Shown here one piece after another: positions 1-64,000 of a DNA stretch of 64,000 bases. The position numbers and the translations under genes are program-made. Under the pieces are notes generated by a model, which made no database searches, had not been told where the DNA came from, and worked only from the letters and a program-made list of their open reading frames with translations. The DNA is from Microbacterium esteraromaticum. GTDB lineage: Bacteria > Actinomycetota > Actinomycetes > Actinomycetales > Microbacteriaceae. The stretch covers positions 1,240,001 through 1,304,000 of the forward strand of contig NZ_JAEMWU010000001.1 of NCBI RefSeq assembly GCF_017303215.1. Direction: 5' to 3'. Within the stretch, counting starts at the first letter, position 1, and each line of letters begins with the position of its first letter.

Positions 1-922
1 CGTCGAAGAAGTTCGTGAACAGCAGCGTGAAGACGATCATCACCAGGGCAACCGAGCTGACCTTGCCCAGGTCGAACGTGAAGTCGACGGCACCGATCAG
101 GCTGAGGTCGGGCACGCTGATCGGCGAGCCGTTCAGCGCGGGAACCGTCAGACCCCACCCGCCCGGGTTGACGATGTTGCCCTCGGCGTCGAAGGTGCGC
201 GGGCCGATCTTCCAGATCGCCTCGACGATGAGGGCCAGCACCGTACCGGTGACCAGACCGATCAGCATGCCGCCCTTGACGCGCAGGGCGACCAGCACGC
301 CCGTGATCAGCAGGGTCACCACGAACAGCAGGGTCGGCACGGTGGCGACCGAGCCGTTCACGCCCAGGCCCACCGGGGGAGAGCTGGTGCCGGTCGCGGT
401 GACGAAGCCCGAGTTGACGAAGCCGATGAAGGCGATGAACAGGCCGATGCCGACGGTGATCGCGATCTTCAGCTCGAACGGCACGGCATCGAAGATGGCC
501 TTGCGCAGACCGGTGGCCGCCAGCAGCACGATCAGCGCGCCGTTGATCATCACCAGCGCCATCGCCTCGGGCCAGGTGACCTGGCCGACGACGCTGAAGG
601 CCACGAACGCGTTGATGCCGAGCCCTGCCGCGAAGCCGAACGGCAGGCGGCTGATGAGCCCGAACAGGATCGTCATGACACCCGCGGTCAGCGCGGTGGC
701 CGCGCCGACGGCGTTGAAGTCGAGCATGTTGCCGGCGACATCGGGTTTGCCGGCGAGGATGATCGGGTTGAGGATGACGATGTACGCCATCGTCACGAAG
801 GTGACCAGACCACCGCGGATCTCAGCGCCGAAGCTGGACCCTCGCTTGGTGATCTCGAAGTAGCGGTCGAGTGAGCCGGTGGGTTTGGGCTCGGTGTCGG
901 GGCGGGTAGGGGCAGTTGTCAT
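1..922 (-). CDS. NCS2 family purine permease (AzgA-like), 3' end outside window
   Basis: Membrane permease that probably imports adenine, guanine or hypoxanthine by proton symport. About 307 N-terminal residues are visible and the C-terminus lies beyond base 1. After a short hydrophilic start comes the family opening (DRYFEITKRGSSFGAEIRGG), then many hydrophobic helices, including the conserved stretch FGFAAGLGINAFVAF. The ATG at 922-920 is preceded by GGAGG six bases upstream. It is divergent from the PerM-like gene. The family call is firm; the exact purine is inferred from resemblance to the AzgA branch rather than the xanthine/uracil branch. Confidence 0.85.
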   Translation of the reverse strand, partial: MTTAPTRPDTEPKPTGSLDRYFEITKRGSSFGAEIRGGLVTFVTMAYIVILNPIILAGKPDVAGNMLDFNAVGAATALTAGVMTILFGLISRLPFGFAAGLGINAFVAFSVVGQVTWPEAMALVMINGALIVLLAATGLRKAIFDAVPFELKIAITVGIGLFIAFIGFVNSGFVTATGTSSPPVGLGVNGSVATVPTLLFVVTLLITGVLVALRVKGGMLIGLVTGTVLALIVEAIWKIGPRTFDAEGNIVNPGGWGLTVPALNGSPISVPDLSLIGAVDFTFDLGKVSSVALVMIVFTLLFTNFFD

Positions 923-39291: not shown

Positions 39292-40254
39292 ATGACGATC
39301 GTGAACCGATATCCAGGCGTGCGCATCGGCCTCGACATCGGCGGCACGAAGATCGCCGGAATCGCGCGTGCCGATGACGGCGCGATCCTCGCCGACGTCC
39401 GCCAGCCGACCGGCATCGGCGGCGACGCCGTCATCGCGGGCATCCTCGACGCTACTCGTGCCCTCCGCGACCAGCTACCCGGTTCCGACATCCGCTCGAT
39501 CGGCATCGGCATCCCCGGGCTCGTCGACGCGAGCGCGGGGAGAGTGCTGCACGCAGTCAACCTGGGGGTGGAATCGCTCGACATCGCGGCGCAAGTGCAG
39601 CGCGCTCTCGACCTGCCCTGCTTCGTCGAGAACGACGTCAAGGCCGCTGCCCTGGGTGCGGCGTCATTGCGCGACGACAACACCCCGATCGCCTACCTCA
39701 ACCTCGGCACGGGTGTCGCGGCCGGCATCGTCATCGACGGACGGATCTGGCGAGGGGCTCGCGGCATCGCCGGCGAGATCGGCCACCTTTCGGTCGATCC
39801 GCAGGGCCGCGTGTGCGGCTGCGGACAGCGCGGCTGCATCGAGACCATGTGCGGCGGGGGAGCGCTGGCTCGCGCCTGGGCACGCGAGGTCGATCTGCCG
39901 GTGAAAGACATCCTCGACGCCGCGGATGCCGGTGACCCGACTGCGACCGTGCTGCGCGATGACCTGTTCCGCGGCGTGGCGGCGGCGGTGCGGGCGCTCG
40001 TGCTGTCGGTGGATGTCGAGAGCGTCGTGATCGGCGGCGGACTCACCGCCCTCGCCGAACGGCTCGAGCCCGGCATCCGCACCGCGTTGCGAGCAGATGC
40101 GGCAACGTCACCGTTCCTGCGGTCGCTGCACCTCGATGAGAGGATAGAGATGCTTCCGGCGGACTCGCCGGTGGCGGCCATCGGGGCCGCCTTGCTGGGC
40201 AGCGCACCTGCAGATACCACCGCACTCGACAAGGAGATCGTCCCCCATGGCTGA
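39292..40254 (+). CDS. ROK family sugar kinase, probable N-acetylglucosamine or glucosamine kinase
   Basis: Cytoplasmic ATP-dependent kinase of 320 residues. DIGGTKIAG binds phosphate, IGIGIPGLVD and FVENDVKAAALG form the sugar site, and the ROK zinc motif is CGCGQRGCIE following the catalytic region GEIGHLSVD. It overlaps nagB by eight bases, so amino sugar phosphorylation before deamination is the natural role. A glucokinase or N-acetylmannosamine kinase cannot be excluded from sequence alone. Confidence 0.88.
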   Translation: MTIVNRYPGVRIGLDIGGTKIAGIARADDGAILADVRQPTGIGGDAVIAGILDATRALRDQLPGSDIRSIGIGIPGLVDASAGRVLHAVNLGVESLDIAAQVQRALDLPCFVENDVKAAALGAASLRDDNTPIAYLNLGTGVAAGIVIDGRIWRGARGIAGEIGHLSVDPQGRVCGCGQRGCIETMCGGGALARAWAREVDLPVKDILDAADAGDPTATVLRDDLFRGVAAAVRALVLSVDVESVVIGGGLTALAERLEPGIRTALRADAATSPFLRSLHLDERIEMLPADSPVAAIGAALLGSAPADTTALDKEIVPHG

Positions 40255-41026
40255 AGTCGTCATCCTCCCCAGCAAGGCCGAAGCAGGCGCGCTCATCGCC
40301 GATGAGATCGTGCGACTGATCGACACTGTCGCTGAACCCGTGCTGGGTCTTGCCACGGGGTCGACGCCGTTGCCGGTCTACGAGGCCTTGCGCGAGCGCC
40401 TGGCCGGCCACGACGTATCGCACCTGCGCGGATTCGCGCTCGACGAGTACGTCGGCATCGACCCGGCTCACCCCGAGAGCTACCGTTCGGTCATCACCCG
40501 CGAGGTCATCGAACCTCTGGGGCTGGACCCCGAGCTGATCCGCGTGCCCAACGGAGCCATCGAGAGCGTCGAGCACGCCGGCGCCGACTACGAGGCGGCG
40601 ATCGCGGCCGCGGGCGGCGTCGACCTGCAGATCCTCGGGATCGGCACAGACGGCCACATCGGGTTCAACGAGCCCGGTTCGTCGTTCGCCTCCAGCACAC
40701 GCGTCAAGACGCTCACCGAGCGCACCCGTGAGGACAACGCCCGGTTCTTCGACTCGATCGACGACGTGCCCCGGCACTGCGTCACCCAGGGACTGGGAAC
40801 GATCCTGCGCGCCAAGCACCTCGTGCTGCTCGCGTTCGGTGAGGGCAAGGCGCGCGCCGTCGCCGAAGCCGTTGAAGGGCCCGTCAGCGCGATCCTGCCC
40901 GCCTCTGCCATCCAGCTGCATCCGCATGTGACGGTCGTGCTCGACGAGGCCGCCGCCAGCGAACTGAAGCTTGCCGACTACTACCGCTACAGCTACGAGA
41001 ACAAGCCCGCCTGGCAGGGCATCTGA
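40247..41026 (+). CDS. nagB: Glucosamine-6-phosphate deaminase
   Basis: Converts glucosamine-6-phosphate to fructose-6-phosphate and ammonia. The 259 residues show LGLATGSTPLPVYEAL (phosphate loop), FALDEYVGIDP with the catalytic Asp, and GIGTDGHIGFNEPGSSF with the active-site His. The ATG is inside the end of the ROK kinase gene. The partner deacetylase nagA is on the other strand about 4.4 kb away. A strong hairpin follows within 25 bases. Confidence 0.95.
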   Translation: MAEVVILPSKAEAGALIADEIVRLIDTVAEPVLGLATGSTPLPVYEALRERLAGHDVSHLRGFALDEYVGIDPAHPESYRSVITREVIEPLGLDPELIRVPNGAIESVEHAGADYEAAIAAAGGVDLQILGIGTDGHIGFNEPGSSFASSTRVKTLTERTREDNARFFDSIDDVPRHCVTQGLGTILRAKHLVLLAFGEGKARAVAEAVEGPVSAILPASAIQLHPHVTVVLDEAAASELKLADYYRYSYENKPAWQGI

Positions 41027-41049
41027 GCCAGCACCGGCCCTCGGGCCGA

Positions 41050-41089
41050 CATCTGCTTCCGCTCAGCGCCACGCGAGCGGAAGCAGATG
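41050..41089. terminator. Bidirectional terminator overlapping the NUDIX 3' end
   Basis: Perfect 14-bp arms CATCTGCTTCCGCT/AGCGGAAGCAGATG with a 12-base loop lie between convergent nagB and the NUDIX gene. The second arm encodes the last residues of the NUDIX protein. Confidence 0.75.
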
Positions 41090-41458
41090 CTCCACGCTGA
41101 GCGGGGCGAGCGGAACGCTGTGCATGTCGCCCGGGGCGAGCCAACGCAGCTCGGCCAGTTCGGCCTGCACGACGACGTCCGAAGATTCCGCCCGCAGCGC
41201 GAATGCCTCGGCGACCACGCGGTGATCGGGCTCGTTCGCCGCTGCCGATATGAACCTTCCCAGCGGCTGCAGCGCCGTCTCGTCGACCCGCAGAGCGAGC
41301 TCCTCATCCAGTTCCCGAATGAGCGTCTGCGCGGCGGTCTCGCCGGGTTCAGGCTTGCCACCGGGCTGCATGAACCGGGTCGTGCCGTGCTTGCGCACCA
41401 CGAGAGCGTGACCGGCGCGGTCGACGATCACCGCGGCGCTGACGTGGATATCAGGCAT
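41063..41458 (-). CDS. NUDIX hydrolase
   Basis: A 131-residue nucleoside-diphosphate-linked hydrolase. The Nudix box reads GKPEPGETAAQTLIRELDEE, matching G-x5-E-x7-RE-x2-EE. The N-terminal strand and the RKHGTTRFMQPGG segment are typical of MutT-like housecleaning enzymes. It overlaps the GlcD-like gene by eight bases, so the two are co-expressed. The substrate is not predictable. Confidence 0.88.
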   Translation of the reverse strand: MPDIHVSAAVIVDRAGHALVVRKHGTTRFMQPGGKPEPGETAAQTLIRELDEELALRVDETALQPLGRFISAAANEPDHRVVAEAFALRAESSDVVVQAELAELRWLAPGDMHSVPLAPLSVEHLLPLAWR

Positions 41459-42812
41459 CGAACACCTTTCCCGGGTTGAGGATTCCTTGTGGATCGAACA
41501 CGCGCACGATGTCGCGTTGCAGCTGCCACTGGTCAGCGCCCAGCTCCTCGGCCAACCAGCGGCTCTTCAGTATGCCGATGCCGTGCTCACCGGTGAGGGT
41601 GCCGCCCAGCCGCACCGCCGTGCGGAAGAGATCGTCGGCGGCGGCCCAGACGTGATCGGGTACGTCCTCGCCGTCGAAGATGAAGTTCGGATGCAGGTTG
41701 CCGTCGCCCGCATGCGCGACGGTCGGGATGCTGACGCCGTGCTGTTGCTCGATCCGCTCGATCTCGTCGAACATCGCCGCCATCGCGCTGCGCGGAACAG
41801 CGACGTCCTCGATCAGCGTCGTGCCAAGCGCGGCCATCGCCGGGTGCATGGAGCGGCGCACGCGCAGGAGTTCCTCGCCGGCATCCGGATCATCCGTGAC
41901 CGCGACAGTGCCGCCGGACGCTTCGAGCACGTGTGCGATCGCGGCAGCCTCTTCGCGTGCGGCCGAGCCATCGGTCTGGATGGTCAGCTGCGCGGATCGC
42001 GCGGCTGGCAGCGGCATCCCGAGCAGATCGTGGACGGCGGCTAGCGCTGTGGCGTCCATGAGCTCCATGACCGACGGCTGCACACCGGCGGCCGTCACTG
42101 CGGCCGCGCCCGCTGCCGCAGCGCTCACTGTGGGGAACGAAGCCGCGAGGGTGCAGACCACGCCCGCAGGGCGTCGGCGCAGTTTGAGCGTCGCACCCAC
42201 GATGACGCCCAGCCGGCCTTCGGAACCGATCGCCAGCGAGGTCAGATCCAGGCCCGTGACGCCCTTCACCGTGCGGTGGCCGAGGCGCAGCATCCGTCCG
42301 TCTGCGAGCACCAGATCCACCCCGAGCACCGCATCGCGCACGACGCCGTACTTTGCACACAGCAGACCACCGGCACCGGTGGCGATGTTGCCGCCGACCG
42401 TGCTGATCTCGCGGCTGGCGGGGTCGGGCGCCCACCACAGGTCGTGCTGTGCCAGGTGCGCGTTCAGGTCGGCGTTGAGGATGCCCGGCTCGACGACCGC
42501 GATGAGATCATCGGGCCGTACTTCGAGGATGCCGGTCATCGCCGCTGTCGACAGCGCGATCTCGCCGGGGCCGGCGTTCGCGCCGCCTGCGAGGCCTGTA
42601 CCCGCGCCGCGGGTCACGACCGGGGTCTCGGTCTGCGAGGCGATGCGCATCGTGCGCTGCACCTCGTCGACGGTCCTGGCATGCACCACGGCCAGAGGGC
42701 ACCCGGCAGAACGATGTCCGCTACGGTCGGCCCTGGCGGCTTCGAGCGCGCCGGACGTCGTATCGACGATATCGCCGAGTTCGCTCTGCAGCAGTGCGAG
42801 GACGTCGGTCAT
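41451..42812 (-). CDS. FAD-binding oxidase, GlcD/D-lactate dehydrogenase family
   Basis: Flavoenzyme of 453 residues oxidising an alpha-hydroxyacid such as glycolate or D-lactate. The FAD_binding_4 domain includes TPVVTRGAGTGLAGGANAG and STVGGNIATGAGGLLCAKYG. The C-terminal FAD-oxidase domain has the metal-binding motif HAGDGNLHPNFIFDG and the end GEHGIGILKSRWL. It lies 13 bases after the DUF2568 stop and has no strong RBS, so translation is probably coupled. If glyoxylate/glycolate chemistry runs in this cell the gene could contribute, but nothing here shows that. Confidence 0.88.
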   Translation of the reverse strand: MTDVLALLQSELGDIVDTTSGALEAARADRSGHRSAGCPLAVVHARTVDEVQRTMRIASQTETPVVTRGAGTGLAGGANAGPGEIALSTAAMTGILEVRPDDLIAVVEPGILNADLNAHLAQHDLWWAPDPASREISTVGGNIATGAGGLLCAKYGVVRDAVLGVDLVLADGRMLRLGHRTVKGVTGLDLTSLAIGSEGRLGVIVGATLKLRRRPAGVVCTLAASFPTVSAAAAGAAAVTAAGVQPSVMELMDATALAAVHDLLGMPLPAARSAQLTIQTDGSAAREEAAAIAHVLEASGGTVAVTDDPDAGEELLRVRRSMHPAMAALGTTLIEDVAVPRSAMAAMFDEIERIEQQHGVSIPTVAHAGDGNLHPNFIFDGEDVPDHVWAAADDLFRTAVRLGGTLTGEHGIGILKSRWLAEELGADQWQLQRDIVRVFDPQGILNPGKVFDA

Positions 42813-42825
42813 GGCCGCGCGGGGT

Positions 42826-43197
42826 TCAGCGGAAGGCGCGGCGCCCGGAGATGACCCCCGTTGCGACAGCCACCACGGCGAAAGCGATGCCGATCCACGT
42901 CGAGCCCATCGACCACCATGCCAGCGTGACACCCACGTAGATCAGCAGTTCGACCAGGGCGCGCAGGAACGGGTGCAGACGAAGCACGGGCTTCGATGAG
43001 AGCACGAGGGCCCACAGCACCAGCACGATCAGCGGCGCACCGATGCCGACGACGATGCTCCACGGCATCGCCCACGTGGCGAAGCCCCACAGGGCGAGGC
43101 TGGCAAGGGCCGCCAGCAGCACGAGCACGCGGACGATGTCGAGCGGGGTGACGTTCGGGCGGGTCACACCGGGTTCGGTGGCGGGATCCTGGGACAT
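42826..43197 (-). CDS. YrdB family small membrane protein (DUF2568)
   Basis: A 123-residue protein with about four membrane helices and short loops, of unknown function. Tryptophan-rich helices such as WGFATWAMPWSIVVGIGAP and the RLHPFLRALVELLIY segment resemble DUF2568. It starts a three-gene minus-strand unit with the GlcD-type oxidase and the NUDIX hydrolase. A missing signal peptide and lack of catalytic motifs leave the role open. Confidence 0.75.
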   Translation of the reverse strand: MSQDPATEPGVTRPNVTPLDIVRVLVLLAALASLALWGFATWAMPWSIVVGIGAPLIVLVLWALVLSSKPVLRLHPFLRALVELLIYVGVTLAWWSMGSTWIGIAFAVVAVATGVISGRRAFR

Positions 43198-43253
43198 GAG
43201 TCCAGTCTATTCGGCGGGCGCGCTGGCCCACGCCGATGCCGGGTGAGCGGTCG

Positions 43254-45080
43254 CTACCGGCTGAGGAAGCCCTTGATGGTGAAGTACGTCCACTCACCGG
43301 GTTCGCCGTCGACGACATAGCGCAGTCCGAGCTCGGCGCCGAGCGCGATCTGCCAGGCGTTCGGGCGCAGGTCGATCAGGCCCTCGCCCTGGGAGTCGAG
43401 AGTGATCTCATCGCCTCCGCCGGGGCTGCCACCCAGCCATGCCTGTACGACGGCGTTCGGGGTGCCGCTGACGGGGAGGACGTAGTGGGTCTTGCCCTCG
43501 TCGTCGACCCAGACCTCGCGCTGACCGTCCCACACGATCGGAGCCAGATCCTGCTCTGGCTCTGGTACGGGGGTTGGCGTTGGCGTTGGCGTCGGTGGGG
43601 CCGTCGGTGTGACGGTCGGTGTCGGCTTCGGCGTGACGGTCGGCGTCGGCTTCGGGGTGACGGTCGGCGTCGGCTTCGGCGTGACCGTCGGTGTCGGCTT
43701 CGGCGTAACGGTGGGAGTGGGCTCGGGCGTGACCGTCGGGCTCGGCTCGGGCGTGACCATCGGCTTCGGGCTCGGCTCGGGCGCGGGGGGCGTCTCGGGC
43801 GCGGCGGGTTCGCTGGGGGTGGCCTCGGCGGCCGGAGGTGCAGCCTCGACGCCCGGCAGGGGTGACGGCGCCGCCGGCGGCTCGTCGTCGACCTCGATCA
43901 CCAGCGGGTTCTCCAGTGGCTTCGAGGTGTCGGGGTTCACCTCGGAAGTGATCGCCGACGAGTCCGACAGCGATGCGCTCGGTGAAGAGGTGGCGCTGCC
44001 CGCCGACGTCAGCGCCGGCACCACCGCGACGGCGGCGACGACGCCGGCGACGACCAGTGCGGCCGAACCCGCACCGACCAGTGCGCCGATTCCCGCGACG
44101 GAACCCGCGCCCGCGCCAGTACCTCCGGAGCCCGCGGCTCCCGCAGCTTCGGCGCCGCCCATGCTCGGCGGTACCGCGCCCGCACCGGAGATCATCGGTG
44201 CACCGACACTTGATGTCGTCCCGCCGATTGTGGCGACATCCACCACACCCGCGGGCATCGCGGCCAATGCGACGATCGGCGCACCGCCGCCCTGCAAAGT
44301 GGCGAGGTAGCTGGAGGCGGCGCCAGCGCCCAGTACGAGCGGAAGGATGACGATCGCCAGGCGCCCGGAGACGTCCTTCGCCTCAGCGGCGACGATGATG
44401 CACCGCGTGCACGAGGCGAGGTGCGCGTCGATACGCTGCTGCGCACGCGGCCCGAGATTGCCGCGTGAGTGAGCGCCGAGGTGTTCGATCGTCCACTGGC
44501 ACTCGGAGCCCTCAGCGACGCTGCGCAGATGCGCTTGGATCCACGCTTCGCGCAGGCCCTCCCGCGCGCGGAAGGTCAACTGGGAGACCGCGCCGGCGGT
44601 CATCCCGAGCAGAGGTGCGATCTCGGCCGGCTTCATCTGCTCGATCTCGGAGTACCAGAGCACTTCCTGCCAGCGCGAGGGAAGTGACCGGAACGCTTGA
44701 GCGGTCAGCCCGCGATCCAACGCTTCATCGGCGGCCGAGTCGGTACTGTGCGGATCGACGACCGCGTCCATCTCATCGATGGGCACTTCGCGGCGGGAGC
44801 GCCCCCATGCCGCCGCGGTGTTGCGGATGCTGGTGAACAGGTACGCGCGGAACGACCCATTCGGGCCGCCGCCCTTGAGGATCGCCTGGTAGATGCGGGC
44901 GTAGGCCTCTTGCACCAGGTCGTCCGGGTCGATAGATGACGTCACCGACCGTGCCACGGTCAGGCCGGACACGTGGTGTCGTCGCCAGAGTTCCGCGAAT
45001 GCCTCGGTGTCGCCCGATCGCGCACGCAACACCAGGTCTGCATCGGCGGATGCCGAATGATCGGCTTTCTGGTCTCCCAC
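43254..45080 (-). CDS. ECF sigma factor fused to zinc-finger anti-sigma-like, membrane and extracytoplasmic domains
   Basis: A 608-residue composite regulator. Residues about 22-90 form sigma region 2 (DLVQEAYARIYQAI) and about 125-185 region 4 (RSLPSRWQEVLWYSEIEQMK). A zinc-binding anti-sigma-like motif follows: Cys194, His220, Cys224 and Cys227 (HLASCTRC). Hydrophobic segments lie at about 241-263 and 328-357, separated by a Gly/Ala-rich stretch. A Pro/Thr repeat (about 415-520) leads to an 80-residue C-terminal domain. It resembles fused ECF groups of actinobacteria where the tail gates sigma activity. The GTG at 45080 has GTGAGGAC upstream. Targets and signal are unknown. Confidence 0.88.
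   Translation of the reverse strand: MGDQKADHSASADADLVLRARSGDTEAFAELWRRHHVSGLTVARSVTSSIDPDDLVQEAYARIYQAILKGGGPNGSFRAYLFTSIRNTAAAWGRSRREVPIDEMDAVVDPHSTDSAADEALDRGLTAQAFRSLPSRWQEVLWYSEIEQMKPAEIAPLLGMTAGAVSQLTFRAREGLREAWIQAHLRSVAEGSECQWTIEHLGAHSRGNLGPRAQQRIDAHLASCTRCIIVAAEAKDVSGRLAIVILPLVLGAGAASSYLATLQGGGAPIVALAAMPAGVVDVATIGGTTSSVGAPMISGAGAVPPSMGGAEAAGAAGSGGTGAGAGSVAGIGALVGAGSAALVVAGVVAAVAVVPALTSAGSATSSPSASLSDSSAITSEVNPDTSKPLENPLVIEVDDEPPAAPSPLPGVEAAPPAAEATPSEPAAPETPPAPEPSPKPMVTPEPSPTVTPEPTPTVTPKPTPTVTPKPTPTVTPKPTPTVTPKPTPTVTPTAPPTPTPTPTPVPEPEQDLAPIVWDGQREVWVDDEGKTHYVLPVSGTPNAVVQAWLGGSPGGGDEITLDSQGEGLIDLRPNAWQIALGAELGLRYVVDGEPGEWTYFTIKGFLSR
43609..43752. repeat. Six tandem 24-bp units encoding Pro-Thr-Val-Thr-Pro-Lys/Glu repeats
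   Basis: Unit GTGACGGTCGGCGTCGGCTT plus CGGC, near-identical in the first four copies and more diverged in the last two. On the coding strand each unit encodes PTPTVTPK or a Glu variant, forming a rigid stalk in the sigma-factor fusion. Confidence 0.9.
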
Positions 45081-45458
45081 TTGATGTCCTCACCACGCGC
45101 TTATCGGAACGCGCTCACACGAAGAGACGCGTGAAGTGTCGTTTCATCACGCGTCCTCCCAATTCTGGTCACAAACGAGCGTCGAAACCAACCCTGTGGA
45201 GAACTCCCCAACCGGGCAGCGGAACTTTCTCGTGAAATTTGTTGGGACTCGCGTAATGAACCCGGTACAGCGGCGTCTCATTACTCGGAGCGAACTGCAG
45301 CACCACCGGGGGGCGGCGTTGCAGCATCGATGCACGGGGTATCGCATCGATGACCCGGTCCGGGCCGAAGACCTCGGGGGAGGAGCCTTCGGTCCGACCG
45401 GCTCCTGGGGACGCGAGGCCGCCGTGCTGGGGAGTACGGCGGCCCGAACCCCGTTCTC
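45081..45458. other. 378-bp intergenic region upstream of the sigma-factor fusion
   Basis: No gene is visible. The part next to the sigma gene contains an inverted repeat ACGCGTGA-N12-TCACGCGT (45127-45154), which may be an operator or a 5' UTR hairpin. The region is less GC-rich than its neighbours around 45210-45290, as expected for a promoter. The remainder, towards nagA, shows nothing I can name. Confidence 0.5.
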
Positions 45459-46640
45459 TCAGCAAGAGCGCGTCGGCGCCGCTCCGACCCAGACGCCCTG
45501 CACGTCGAACCCGTCGCTCAGCAGCACCGCATCGGCGACGAAGCCCGGCTGCAATGTTCCCAGCGAAGCGCCGTATCCGATCGCGCCGGCAGGCGTCGAT
45601 GTGAGGGCGCGGACGGCCTCGGCCAACGGCACACCCGCGGCGACGGCGTTGCGCAACGCCACGTCCTGCGTCAGCGTCGAACCCGCGATCGAGCCGGTGT
45701 CGTCGGTGCGGGCGACGCCGTCCTTCACCGTGACCTTCACCGCGCCGAGGTCGTAGTGCCCGTCGGCGCTACCGGCCGCCGCCATCGCATCGGTGATCAG
45801 CGCCACGCGACCTGGCGCGACGTCGAAGAGCAGCTTGATGATGTTCGGGTGCAGGTGGATGTTGTCGGCGATGCCCTCGAGCACCACGCGGTGATCGGCC
45901 GCGGCAGTGATGACCGGCCCCGGCGTGCGGTGGTGAATGCCGTTCATGGCGTTGAACGCGTGCGTCAGGATCGATGCGCCCGCCTCGAAGGCCGCGCGTG
46001 CGGCATCCGCGTCCGCGTCGGTGTGACCGATCGCGGCGACCGCGCCCGACGCGACGATCTGACGGACCGCGTCGAGGCCACCGGGCAGCTCCGGCGCGAT
46101 CGTGACCTGACGCACCGTCCCGCGGCCGGCCTCCAGCAGGCGCGCCACGTCGGCCGTCTCCGGGTGGCGCAGCAGCGACGGCTCGTGCGCGCCCTGATGG
46201 CCGGGATCGAGGAAGGGGCCCTCCAGGTGGCTACCGAGGATCTCGGCATCCGACTCGGCGAGATCGGCGATCACGGCGGCCTGCTGCGCGAGCGCGTCGA
46301 CGCTCGCGGTCACCAACGAGATCACGGCACGTGTCGTGCCGTGCGCGCGGTGCATCATTCGGCCGGTGCGGATCGCCTCGGCTCCGTCGTCATAGGCGGC
46401 GCCGGCACCACCATGACCGTGGATGTCGATGAATCCAGGGCACAGCAGCGCACCCGGACCGGCGACCGACACGGCATCGACCACGTCGTCCGCATCGGTC
46501 CAGTCCGTTCCCGTGCCGCGGGCGGCGACGTAGCCATCCTCGAAACGCACCCACGCGTTCTCGGTGATCGAACCATCTCCGTCGACCAGACGTGCGGAAT
46601 GGACGACCCGCGATCCGCGGAAGTCGGTGGTCGGGGTCAT
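45459..46640 (-). CDS. nagA: N-acetylglucosamine-6-phosphate deacetylase
   Basis: Removes acetate from GlcNAc-6-phosphate, giving the nagB substrate. The 393 residues show PGFIDIHGHGGAG, SHLEGPFLDPGHQGAH, the metal-binding IGHTDADAD, THAFNAMNGIHHR and ALITDAMAAAGSADGHYDLG (catalytic Asp). The ATG overlaps the stop of the upstream hexosaminidase gene, so the two are translated together. This places chitin-oligomer or cell-wall GlcNAc release next to deacetylation. Confidence 0.95.
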   Translation of the reverse strand: MTPTTDFRGSRVVHSARLVDGDGSITENAWVRFEDGYVAARGTGTDWTDADDVVDAVSVAGPGALLCPGFIDIHGHGGAGAAYDDGAEAIRTGRMMHRAHGTTRAVISLVTASVDALAQQAAVIADLAESDAEILGSHLEGPFLDPGHQGAHEPSLLRHPETADVARLLEAGRGTVRQVTIAPELPGGLDAVRQIVASGAVAAIGHTDADADAARAAFEAGASILTHAFNAMNGIHHRTPGPVITAAADHRVVLEGIADNIHLHPNIIKLLFDVAPGRVALITDAMAAAGSADGHYDLGAVKVTVKDGVARTDDTGSIAGSTLTQDVALRNAVAAGVPLAEAVRALTSTPAGAIGYGASLGTLQPGFVADAVLLSDGFDVQGVWVGAAPTRSC

Positions 46641-48157
46641 CAGGAGCTCCAGTCGATCTCAGCTGCGCGGTGGAAGTGGATGCCGTCAGCCTGCCACAGC
46701 GGAGCCATTGCTCCCAGTCGGGTACGGAACGAGTCCCAGGTCAGCTGCGGCGATCCTGCGGGCGTCCATGCGCGCTCGGCGACGGCTGCGATGCGTGGGT
46801 AGATCAGCTGATCGGCGTCTTCGAAGGTGCGCACCGTCTCGGTCCACAGCGGTCCCTCGATGCCGAGGATCGCCTCGTCGGGCACATCGAGCATGTCGGT
46901 CGGTTCCCACTCGTACGAGCGGCGCACGTCGATCAGGCCCGCCCAGGCCAGGCCCAGCGGGTAGTCGGCGTCGTACTTCATATCGAGGTAGATCGTGTCG
47001 GACGGCGACAGGATCAGCCCACCGCCGCGCGCGACGAAATGCGCCGCCTCGGACGCGTGCAGCTCGGACGGCTTGAGGGCACCCCAGAACTGGCCGACCG
47101 TGCCCGTGGCGATCTCGGCGGCAGCGCCGGCCTCGTGCCACGCGACCGGAGTCTTTCCGATCTGCTGCACCATCGCCGTCGCGCGCTCGACGAAGTACGC
47201 GAAGTCCTCGGCCGAGGTGCCCAGCGACTCGTCACCACCGATGTGCAGGTACGGGCCGGGGGTGATCTCGGCGAGCTCGGTGAGCACGTCGCGCACGAAG
47301 TCGTACGTGCGCTCGTCGCGGATGCGCACGCTGGAGTGGCCCACGCCCCAGCCGGTGAACGGCTCGCCGCGTACGGGCAGCTGCTGCCCCCACGCCTCGG
47401 TGGCGCGCACGAGCTCGTCGTTGAGCACAGGCTCTTCGACGAGATCCGGGTAGGCGACGCCGATCGCGTGCGTGTGGCCGGGCAGGTCGATCTCGGGCAC
47501 GATCGTGACATGCCGCGATGCCGCGTGCCCGACGATCTCGCGGTAGTCGTCCTTCGTGTAGAAGCCGCCGGCGTCGCCGTTGGCAGACGTCGTCGAGGCC
47601 TTCTCTGCCAGCAGCGGCCAGGCATCGATCTCGATGCGCCAGCCCTGGTCGTCGGTGAGGTGCAGGTGCAGGTGGTTGAACTTCAGCGCGGCAGCGCGGT
47701 CGATGACGGTCTTGACCTCGTCGACGGGGAAGAAGTGGCGGGTGACGTCGAGCATCACACCGCGGTAGGCGAAGCGGGGGGCATCCGCCACCTCGGCGCG
47801 CTGCCACCCCCAGCCGTCCTCGCCCTCGCGCAGCAGCTGCAACAGGGTCTGGACGCCGTAGAACAGGCCGGCCGCATCGGCGCCGACCACCTCGATGCTC
47901 TCGGCGACGCGCAGCGTGTAACCCTCGGCGGCGGCCGCCGCCGGGTCGACCCGCAGAGCGATCGTGGTCGCGGCGTCGTCGGTGGCATCCGACGTGGTGA
48001 GGCGGGTGCCGGTACGGCGCTCGACGGCGTCGATCAGGGCGGCGGATGCTGCCTCGCACCCGTGCACGAGGGTGCCCGGCGTCAGTGCGAGGCGCCCCTC
48101 TCCGGCCGTGGCCGAGATCGGGGAGGGGATCAGGGGGAGGGAATCTGGAAGGGCCAT
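46640..48157 (-). CDS. Beta-N-acetylhexosaminidase, glycoside hydrolase family 20
   Basis: Releases terminal GlcNAc by substrate-assisted catalysis. The 505 residues have the GH20b N-terminal domain and the catalytic barrel: YRGVMLDVTRHFFPVDEVK, HLHLTDDQGWRIEI, EIDLPGHTHAIG and the Asp-Glu catalytic pair in YLHIGGDESLG. I see no signal peptide, so it is probably cytoplasmic and acts on imported disaccharides or muropeptides. The ATG at 48157 follows a TAGGTT -10 box by six bases, so the mRNA is probably leaderless. A TTG two codons upstream is less likely. Confidence 0.92.
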   Translation of the reverse strand: MALPDSLPLIPSPISATAGEGRLALTPGTLVHGCEAASAALIDAVERRTGTRLTTSDATDDAATTIALRVDPAAAAAEGYTLRVAESIEVVGADAAGLFYGVQTLLQLLREGEDGWGWQRAEVADAPRFAYRGVMLDVTRHFFPVDEVKTVIDRAAALKFNHLHLHLTDDQGWRIEIDAWPLLAEKASTTSANGDAGGFYTKDDYREIVGHAASRHVTIVPEIDLPGHTHAIGVAYPDLVEEPVLNDELVRATEAWGQQLPVRGEPFTGWGVGHSSVRIRDERTYDFVRDVLTELAEITPGPYLHIGGDESLGTSAEDFAYFVERATAMVQQIGKTPVAWHEAGAAAEIATGTVGQFWGALKPSELHASEAAHFVARGGGLILSPSDTIYLDMKYDADYPLGLAWAGLIDVRRSYEWEPTDMLDVPDEAILGIEGPLWTETVRTFEDADQLIYPRIAAVAERAWTPAGSPQLTWDSFRTRLGAMAPLWQADGIHFHRAAEIDWSS

Positions 48158-48163
48158 GAACAA

Positions 48164-62895: not shown

Positions 62896-64000
62896 ATGCA
62901 GTTCCACCACCACGGCTACGTCTCCCACGACCCACGGGTGCTGCCCGCCGAGGGCCTGGGTGTCGACCGCCCCACCGATCTTCCCGACGAGGTGGACGTG
63001 CTCATCGTCGGCTCCGGACCGGCGGGCATGCTGCTGGCCGCGCAGATGTCGCAGTACCCCGACGTGAACACGCGCGTGATCGAGAAGCGCGAGGGGCGTC
63101 TGGTGCTGGGGCAGGCCGACGGCATCCAGCCGCGCAGCGTCGAGACGTTCCAGGCGTTCGGGTTCGCCGAGCGGATCATCGCCGAGGCCTACAACATCGG
63201 CTGGATGAACTTCTGGGGCCCCGACCCCGAGAACCCCCAGAACATCATCCGCACCGCGCGGACGGCCGACTACGCGTACGACATCTGCGAGTTCCCGCAC
63301 CTGATCGTGAACCAGGCGCGCGTGCTCGACTACTTCGCCGAGGCCGCCGCCGACGGGCCGGGACGCATCGTGCCCGACTACGGCGTCGAGTTCGTGGGAC
63401 TCACCGTGCACGAGGGCGGCGCGTTTCCGGTCGAGGTGCGCGTGCGCGACGGCGCGGGGGAGCGCACGATCCGTGCGAAGTACGTCGTCGGATGCGACGG
63501 TGCACGCAGCGGGGTGCGCGAGGCCATCGGACGCAAGCACGTCGGCGGCATCTCGGCGCACGCCTGGGGCGTCATGGATGTGCTCGTCAACACCGACTTC
63601 CCCGATTGGCGCACCAAATGCGCCATCAATGCTGAGGCGGGCAACATCCTGCACATCCCGCGTGAGGGCGGCTACCTCAGCCGTATGTACATCGACCTCG
63701 GCGCGGTTGCCGAGGACGATGATCACCGTGTGCGGCAGACCCCGATCGACGAGATCATCCGACAGGCGAACGCGATCCTGCACCCGTACTCGATCGACGT
63801 CAAGGATGTCGCCTGGCACAGCGTCTACGAGGTGGGGCACCGCGTCACCGATGGCTTCGACGATGTGATCGACGGCTCGGGGCGCACGCCGCGCGTCTTC
63901 CTCACCGGCGACGCCTGCCACACGCACAGCGCGAAGGCCGGGCAGGGCATGAACGTCTCGATGCAGGACGGTTTCAACCTGGGCTGGAAGCTCGGTTCCG
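62896..64000 (+). CDS. FAD-dependent aromatic hydroxylase (MobA/phenol 2-monooxygenase family), 3' end outside window
   Basis: The first 368 residues of a flavoprotein monooxygenase, usually about 630 long. VDVLIVGSGPAGMLLAAQM binds FAD, LGQADGIQPRSVETFQAFGF and EFPHLIVNQARVLDYF match 3-hydroxybenzoate 4-monooxygenase closely, VVGCDGARSGVR is the DG motif, and FLTGDACHTHSAKAGQGMNVSMQDGFNLGWKL (quoted in part: LTGDACHTHSAKAGQGMN) is the second FAD motif. GAAGGAGAAGCG precedes the ATG. Next to the hpa genes it may make homoprotocatechuate from 3- or 4-hydroxyphenylacetate, but the close match to MobA leaves 3-hydroxybenzoate as an alternative. Confidence 0.87.
   Translation, partial: MQFHHHGYVSHDPRVLPAEGLGVDRPTDLPDEVDVLIVGSGPAGMLLAAQMSQYPDVNTRVIEKREGRLVLGQADGIQPRSVETFQAFGFAERIIAEAYNIGWMNFWGPDPENPQNIIRTARTADYAYDICEFPHLIVNQARVLDYFAEAAADGPGRIVPDYGVEFVGLTVHEGGAFPVEVRVRDGAGERTIRAKYVVGCDGARSGVREAIGRKHVGGISAHAWGVMDVLVNTDFPDWRTKCAINAEAGNILHIPREGGYLSRMYIDLGAVAEDDDHRVRQTPIDEIIRQANAILHPYSIDVKDVAWHSVYEVGHRVTDGFDDVIDGSGRTPRVFLTGDACHTHSAKAGQGMNVSMQDGFNLGWKLGS

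Follow-up and report, generated by a model that had tools for sequence, protein, structure and literature searches.

A stretch of 64,000 nucleotides from Microbacterium esteraromaticum (RefSeq assembly GCF_017303215.1, contig NZ_JAEMWU010000001.1, positions 1,240,001 to 1,304,000; here called the window, with positions counted from its first letter) carries on its minus strand a gene (43254..45080, GTG start, exact open reading frame (ORF) boundaries) for a protein of 608 residues in which an extracytoplasmic function (ECF) sigma factor is fused to a zinc finger of the anti-sigma type, two hydrophobic segments, a stalk and a C-terminal domain. We consider it fairly probable that the chain belongs with the one-component transmembrane sigma factors of the ECF52/ECF53 kind and that, once freed, the sigma part activates its own gene together with a dedicated structured RNA that acts in trans. 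With a little less assurance, we also lean to the view that the conserved output in the genus, besides the sigma factor itself, is this RNA, a new family with several hairpins and GGGG loops whose sigma-specific promoter lies back to back with that of the sigma gene, the whole forming a wall-to-RNA signalling unit in Actinobacteria. A neighbouring RNA whose promoter matches the sigma gene's own suggests what the sigma factor turns on. The divergent promoter and the RNA had gone unnoticed in a sequence-only reading that had described the fused protein.

The order of the domains, the conserved locus, the paired promoter motifs, the covariation of the RNA and its association with the sigma gene across the genus are direct results of sequence comparison. 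From them we infer the topology, the release of the sigma part, its reading of the motif, and the transcription and action of the RNA.

Paired promoter motifs and a covarying RNA

A scan of genome contigs found 25 loci in other assemblies (22 from Microbacterium and three from unclassified Actinomycetota metagenome-assembled genomes) that encode a relative of the fusion chain, so the architecture is not a product of chance. Individual loci and genomes are cited below by our L and G numbers. Before the 26 sigma genes, that of the window included, stands the consensus CGCGTRAT, 15 (once 16) variable bases, GCGTCTC; the spacing is near-fixed and the sequence of the spacer is variable. In the window it forms a putative ECF-type promoter of the sigma gene (CGCGTGAT-N15-GCGTCTCTT; 45122..45153, minus strand), which occurs in full or relaxed form in 23 of the 26 loci. 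A second copy of the motif faces the other way (45250..45281, plus strand) and is the best-scoring divergent site in all 26 loci: it has CGCGTAAT in 25 of them and GGCGTAAT in L020, with TCTC at equal spacing in every case and a −10 half that is looser than at the sigma gene. Base composition marks an A+T-rich, UP-element-like stretch just upstream of it (45220..45249, plus strand); over the 26 loci the 30 bases before the divergent site average 54% A+T (range 30–67%), the corresponding values being 27% for the RNA and 32% for the window.

A matrix was trained on 22 own-gene sites, the window's own site among them and the divergent site not. Run over the 64 kb window, it scored the own site at 41.8, the divergent site second at 22.9 and a third site at 12.6, and found no copy before the genes of the N-acetylglucosamine block described below. 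In the whole genome (3.06 Mb) the strict motif matches three times, at the own site, at the divergent site and inside an ORF at 63073–63101, and its reversed-pattern control does not match at all; in 149 genomes of the genus there are 72 matches, spread over 53 genomes, versus two for the control. No wider regulon emerged in the window genome, which has 32 sites at up to two mismatches versus 30 in the control; by a simple count over 30 of these 32, L061 has a GGGG hairpin besides the divergent site.

The space between the divergent site and the stop codon of the adjoining gene, nagA, is occupied by a predicted structured RNA (45282..45417, plus strand) with a closing stem P1, hairpins P2 to P4 and G-rich loops on P2 and P4. 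It is followed by a terminator-like hairpin with a GGGG loop (45417..45446, plus strand), to which similar ones were seen by eye in relatives. None of 200 dinucleotide shuffles folds as well as the window sequence (z −4.2), and for four relatives the numbers are 0, 0, 0 and 3 of 200. In an alignment of 21 of the 26 loci, from which L024, L027, L028, L029 and L030 were excluded as too diverged, the consensus is a closing stem plus three hairpins, i.e. a four-way junction, and 11 of its 28 pairs have changed on both sides. Doubly changed cells number 41, versus a shuffled mean of 14.2 (the observed value was reached in 0 of 500 shuffles), and 95.2% of cells pair, versus 43–64% when the partner is slid by one to three columns. 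Conservation is highest in the apical loops: the P2 loop CCGGGGGG is kept in 22 and the P4 loop YTCGGGGG(G)AGG in 24 of the 26 sequences, and in these sequences GGGG is closed by at least three Watson–Crick pairs 34 times (shuffled mean 3.8, maximum 11). Since the loops are exposed and near-invariant, they suggest pairing with C-rich targets, which is the least certain part of our proposal; the RNA may instead act by protein binding or by G-quadruplex formation.

Neither strand of the RNA region scores above the gathering cut-off of any Rfam family (best 22.7 bits versus 58), nor does the same region of seven related loci score above cut-off. A covariance model, R1, with the window RNA in its training set, finds a single copy in the window genome (81.1 bits; next match 18.3). 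Two other identities for the element were tried and set aside. No conserved ORF was found behind the divergent site in the 26 loci, and a peptide-coding RNA was rejected: L022 and L026 lack ATG, GTG and TTG over the initial 110 nt, and in the other loci the longest frames seem by eye to be unrelated beyond close relatives. A role as sponge for 6C RNA was not supported, there being no 6C match at E 0.001 in the window genome by a search whose control is weak (it rings in one of 14 genomes, and above the cut-off in none).

The strand of the RNA bears on another explanation, in which an ordinary ECF52-like sigma factor adjoins a 3′ flank or terminator of nagA, the hairpins serve the nagA mRNA on the minus strand and the second motif is incidental. 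The region does lie directly after the nagA stop codon, and its hairpins fold on both strands, in each case with strong z-scores. RNAalifold gives −34.0 on the plus strand versus −25.6 on the minus strand, and the count of GU versus AC in shared pairs (25 versus 8) favours plus; the test without GU pairing does not (18 GU versus 24 AC), and shuffle z-scores are more extreme on the minus strand in four of five sequences. Direction is also indicated by the spaced motif, which points towards plus in all 26 loci and is preceded by a stretch of high average A+T content, and by its repetition together with the RNA. Five genomes have a second RNA match, which in four of them lies about 220–250 bases away from the other. 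In the three tandem loci read (L092, L093 and L157) every RNA copy stands directly behind a motif of its own, so that motif and RNA appear tied and the plus direction is favoured. A four-way junction with near-invariant loops moreover exceeds what a terminator needs. The assignment to the plus strand draws on the motif, on the fact that it is repeated in tandem along with the RNA, and on RNAalifold; the strand tests are mixed, and we hold the nagA explanation to be unlikely.

Association of the RNA with the sigma gene

Under strict filters the RNA model matches two of 150 genomes of the wider family, both of Microbacterium, and within the genus it matches 49 of 149. A sigma/zinc-finger profile (E 1e-30) matches 108 of the same 149 genomes; the RNA occurs in 48 of these 108 and in one of the 41 sigma-negative genomes (Fisher p 1.2e-7, uncorrected for relatedness). 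Comparison of coordinates places it at most about 0.5 kb from a sigma gene in all 48 genomes that have both, and all 31 RNA loci inspected contain the sigma gene and nagA. The one sigma-negative genome with a match is G275. Its match is partial and weak (35.6 bits), the surrounding 3.5 kb contain neither a sigma gene nor nagA nor a motif site, and the match is probably an isolated hairpin. An isolated CCUCGGGGGAGG hairpin was seen at about 1763–1875 of L162, where the genome has no such sigma factor, directly after the end of a gene for an apparent wall-anchored protein. In G217 (L155) two fused sigma genes stand in tandem, with a motif of the own-gene type at the first and the divergent motif plus RNA at the second.

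All of this evidence is association, and seven further Sigma70_r2 matches in the window genome offer other candidates for reading the motif pair; the fused sigma factor would then neither autoregulate nor control the RNA. We think this quite unlikely. The two of the three strict sites in the genome that lie outside ORFs both flank the sigma gene, motif and RNA track that gene across genomes, and the −10-like box CGTC is typical of ECF promoters.

Of the 72 strict matches in the genus, 17, picked by eye, were read in their context. Four are the sigma gene's own promoter, and five (L139, L140, L142, L150 and L154) have no explanation or look like chance. Two precede related ORFs of 156 and 151 residues (L138 2184–2654, whose genome is of the same species as the window, and L145 2171–2626), whose products share 36% identity, have no Pfam match and start 6–7 bases beyond the motif. 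Two others precede related small membrane proteins (L146 568–903 and L147 2298–2597; 44% over 63 residues, no Pfam match), one a secreted protein with a terminal sortase-like signal recognized by eye, and one a hydrophobic ORF of 50 residues; one (L143) stands beside a sigma relative. In L151 the motif (477–506, plus strand) is followed by an RNA-like stretch with repeated UGGGGA runs and hairpins, on a different contig from the sigma locus of that genome.

Domains, topology and a possible mechanism

The domain order described in the sequence-only reading, namely ECF regions 2 and 4, a zinc motif, hydrophobic segments, a Pro-Thr stalk and a C-terminal domain in one chain, is borne out by Pfam and NCBIfam, hydropathy and an AlphaFold2 model. 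An NCBIfam sigma70-ECF match covers residues 26–179 (E 1.9e-20), and within it the sigma part consists of regions 2 and 4 only, both above the curated Pfam cut-offs: region 2 at residues 35–96 (44793..44978, minus strand; Sigma70_r2 PF04542, E 7.6e-8) and region 4 at residues 128–174 (44559..44699, minus strand; Sigma70_r4_2 PF08281, E 4.6e-7). The zinc finger (pfam13490) follows region 4; its core, residues 194–227 (44400..44501, minus strand), matches zf-HC2 above the curated cut-off (E 1.9e-6). C194, H220, C224 and C227, assigned as zinc ligands from the motif, are invariant across 23 aligned sequences, the window protein counted in. As had also been claimed, there is no separate anti-sigma gene among the five neighbours examined with Pfam (nagA, GH20, DUF2568, nagB and ROK).

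Beyond the zinc finger come two hydrophobic segments joined by a Gly/Ala-rich link: segment 1, right after the finger, at residues about 240–263 (44292..44363, minus strand; hydropathy) and segment 2 at about 330–355 (44016..44093, minus strand; hydropathy and charge). A Pro/Thr-rich stalk, read from the sequence, spans residues about 401–515 (43536..43880, minus strand), and the chain ends in a domain at about 520–605 (43266..43523, minus strand) that is predicted to be an immunoglobulin (Ig)-like beta sandwich. No other long part of the AlphaFold2 model is predicted as well as this terminal one (about 511–608), which has a predicted local distance difference test (pLDDT) score of about 90 in most blocks and no Pfam match at E 1. 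Among 997 aligned chains its best structural neighbour is the C region of the biofilm-associated protein Bap (7dm0; Z 8.6, 2.5 Å over 78 residues), followed at Z 7–8 by assorted Ig-like and fibronectin type III-like domains; chitinase N-terminal domains appear at Z about 7 and are not specific. The likeness of fold shows no function.

All 25 relatives have the sigma part, the zinc finger, segments 1 and 2 and then a Pro-, Gly- or Asp-rich stretch. Their tails vary: mean pairwise identity is 43% for the stalk and 32% for the C-terminal domain versus 84–90% for the sigma regions, so that stalk and C-terminal domain diverge fast. By eye, three of the 26 proteins (L027, L029 and L030) appear to have no terminal domain, their tails being rich in Gly/Asn or Ala/Pro; four (L014, L018, L026 and L033) are broken off by the contig end.

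More distant relatives occur on plasmids, where 65 records have a tblastn match, with the strongest matches in Arthrobacter, Streptomyces, Paenarthrobacter and Nonomuraea. The nine examined have the sigma part, a CxxC motif at the expected place of the zinc finger and hydrophobic segments; in the three scanned with Pfam, zf-HC2 cleared its cut-off in L037, fell short of it in L034 and was unlisted in L036. Their ends differ: L036 has a ricin-type lectin there, and L034 a bacterial Ig match that stays under the cut-off. The plasmid sigma genes L034, L037 and L040 adjoin genes with surface-protein annotations, namely LPXTG and SpaA-type pilins (Arthrobacter), a SpaA-type pilin (Paenarthrobacter) and a sortase-dependent surface protein (Streptomyces).

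Two hydrophobic segments had been noted before, together with the puzzle that two membrane crossings would return the tail to the cytoplasm. Both segments (242–262 and 334–354 in the window protein) recur in all 26 proteins examined, and beyond segment 2 the best 19-residue Kyte–Doolittle window reaches 0.04–1.45 versus 1.59–2.08 for segment 1. The link between them has 0–1 basic and 0–2 acidic residues, and the 30 residues beyond segment 2 have 0–1 basic and 1–8 acidic residues in the 26 close proteins. Charges were also counted in eight of nine distant relatives (L042 was left out, the wrong segments having been picked): segment 2 is preceded by 20 residues with 2–5 basic and 0–1 acidic ones (net +2 to +5) and followed by 20 with 0–2 basic and 1–4 acidic ones (net 0 to −4). 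By the positive-inside rule this pattern makes segment 2 run outward, and it is most likely an outward transmembrane helix that leaves the stalk outside. The puzzle is thereby largely answered; for the role of segment 1 we infer an answer rather than observe one.

An outward segment 2 is incompatible with segment 1 being, by itself, a simple span, and segment 1 probably is not one. It starts about 12 residues after the zinc finger and has an invariant Leu-Pro-Leu core, a position and core that fit a hydrophobic extension of the anti-sigma domain; it may otherwise form a hairpin with the stretch after it, again leaving the tail outside. That stretch (about 267–285, ALAAMP) comes near segment 1 on the Kyte–Doolittle scale in the window protein (1.82 versus 1.88). 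On the Hessa-type and octanol scales it ranks below segment 1 in every one of the 26 proteins, and below segment 2 in 26 and 24 of 26, respectively (exceptions L021 and L029). It may be a further span, as a weaker candidate on two of the three scales; three spans would once more put the tail outside. A model with segment 1 as an anti-sigma helix packed on the sigma part was tried and dropped: segment 1 is helical in both AlphaFold models, where it and sigma region 2 have low confidence.

We regard it as quite unlikely that segments 1 and 2 both span and nothing else does, leaving stalk and C-terminal domain cytoplasmic. The two segments are alike in length and conservation, as that arrangement would have it; the charges on either side of segment 2 in distant relatives and after it in the close proteins tell against it, as would a third span at 267–285, and long Pro/Thr stalks and Ig-like domains are usually extracellular.

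Under the reading that we favour, of a sigma factor released from the membrane, the zinc-finger domain would keep the sigma part of its own chain inactive on the inner side of the membrane, segment 1 extending that domain hydrophobically, segment 2 crossing the membrane outward, and the stalk and Ig-like domain reaching into the wall. A signal from wall or surface would pass along the stalk, and cleavage or a conformational change would free the sigma part from the zinc-finger domain. The free sigma factor would recognize CGCGTRAT-N15-GCGTCTC and fire the two back-to-back promoters, its own, giving positive feedback, and the divergent one of the dedicated structured RNA, which would act in trans; the likeliest way is base pairing by its G-rich loops, which are exposed.

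Several observations weigh against this reading, the two dissenting strand tests given above among them. The link between sigma factor and motif is a correlation. The divergent site of L033 scores just 7.4, and L027, L029 and L030 have the divergent motif without the own-gene motif. R1 is weak on L024, L027, L029 and L030, has no match on L028, and finds the RNA in under half of the 108 sigma-positive genomes; all four R1-negative genomes with the sigma motif that were inspected keep a divergent motif and, by eye, G-rich hairpins, and so R1 under-reports the RNA. Twelve of the 108 hold weaker sigma matches alone (1e-58 to 1e-91); with these no longer counted as positive, the RNA is found in 48 of 96 versus one of 53 genomes (p 7e-11, again uncorrected for relatedness). 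In the protein, AlphaFold placed neither sigma region 2 nor segment 1 confidently, the equal conservation of segments 1 and 2 (73% versus 72%) cannot tell them apart, and the two swap rank between the Hessa-type and octanol scales.

Gene neighbourhood and known systems

In the window the sigma gene lies within a block of N-acetylglucosamine genes (39292–48163; ROK kinase, nagB, nagA and GH20) that recurs in relatives. The neighbour nagA adjoins the sigma gene in 25 of 25 relative loci, and glyA, GH20, DUF2568, FAD oxidase, NUDIX, nagB and ROK recur in constant order, some genes missing in some loci and contigs limiting the view. Upstream of glyA lies a ZMP/ZTP riboswitch (RF01750; 48221–48303, plus strand; 52.8 bits versus a cut-off of 39), present also in seven of seven related loci scanned.

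The design of the fusion is known, and the novelty that the sequence-only reading had implied for it does not hold: it is of the actinobacterial ECF52/ECF53 kind, of which SCO4117 of Streptomyces coelicolor is an example. According to PMC5826349 and PMC8999054, sigma factors of the groups ECF48, ECF52 and ECF53 come with a zinc finger in the same chain and with one or two transmembrane helices. Those of ECF52 have, in addition, an outer domain and a stretch rich in proline, and intramolecular control by proteolysis has already been proposed for them. The protein here shares with ECF52 a sigma part of regions 2 and 4 only, the fused zinc finger, a predicted transmembrane region after it and a proline-rich extension. 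SCO4117 is likewise actinobacterial and has an ECF sigma factor, the zinc finger pfam13490, a transmembrane region, a proline-rich extension and an outer C-terminal domain; its proposed autoregulation and proteolytic release (PMC5826349, PMC8999054) parallel our proposal. ECF53 and ECF48 are similar in having a C-terminal zinc finger with one to two transmembrane helices (PMC8999054). The likeness to ECF52, ECF53 and ECF48 is one of domain design.

There are also differences. The C-terminal domain here is Ig-like and lacks a Pfam match. A carbohydrate-binding domain in this place is a mark of the ECF52 group, and the structural resemblance of the domain here to chitinase N-terminal domains is not specific evidence of one. 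Compared by eye, the motif CGCGTRAT-N15-GCGTCTC looks different from the CSGYN-17-SRHA reported for SCO4117, which, as the SCO4117 paper states, itself differs from an earlier ECF52 prediction; both ECF52 predictions are theoretical, the term that the authors use for the motifs they propose (PMC5826349). Unlike at SCO4117, a divergent structured RNA is present, and the locus holds N-acetylglucosamine genes, in place of atrA there. IutY of Pseudomonas putida (ECF243) is another sigma factor fused to a membrane anti-sigma part and is freed by proteolysis; it serves iron–siderophore cell-surface signalling, unlike the protein here, and the passage on it mentions neither zinc finger nor stalk (PMC8999054).

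For the RNA, the closest parallel in arrangement is with GsrN and the EcfG-dependent small RNAs of Alphaproteobacteria, which have an ECF-type promoter, lie near the sigma locus (a typical position of predicted GsrN homologues) and have an exposed loop as their best conserved part (PMC5869019). In contrast to the G-rich loops here, the loop of GsrN is C-rich and base-pairs with a G-tract of the katG leader; in predicted Rhizobiaceae homologues it is G-rich (PMC5869019). The likeness drawn to GsrN is one of arrangement. The sigma factor of GsrN is controlled by a soluble partner switch, versus a fused membrane anchor here. Another comparison is 6C RNA (RF01066), which is actinobacterial and has two hairpins capped by single-base runs; its loops are C-rich, unlike those of the RNA here. 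We found no published description of the RNA or of the promoter pair in the open-licence library searched.

Fused transmembrane ECF sigma factors are known but hardly characterized. Comparative genomics here yields a concrete and strongly conserved promoter pair with one nearby candidate output, and the pair would make the signal path measurable with a single reporter. Should the RNA prove real, it represents a new family of structured RNAs, and the GsrN-type arrangement, an ECF sigma factor with a small RNA of its own nearby, would extend from Alphaproteobacteria to Actinobacteria.

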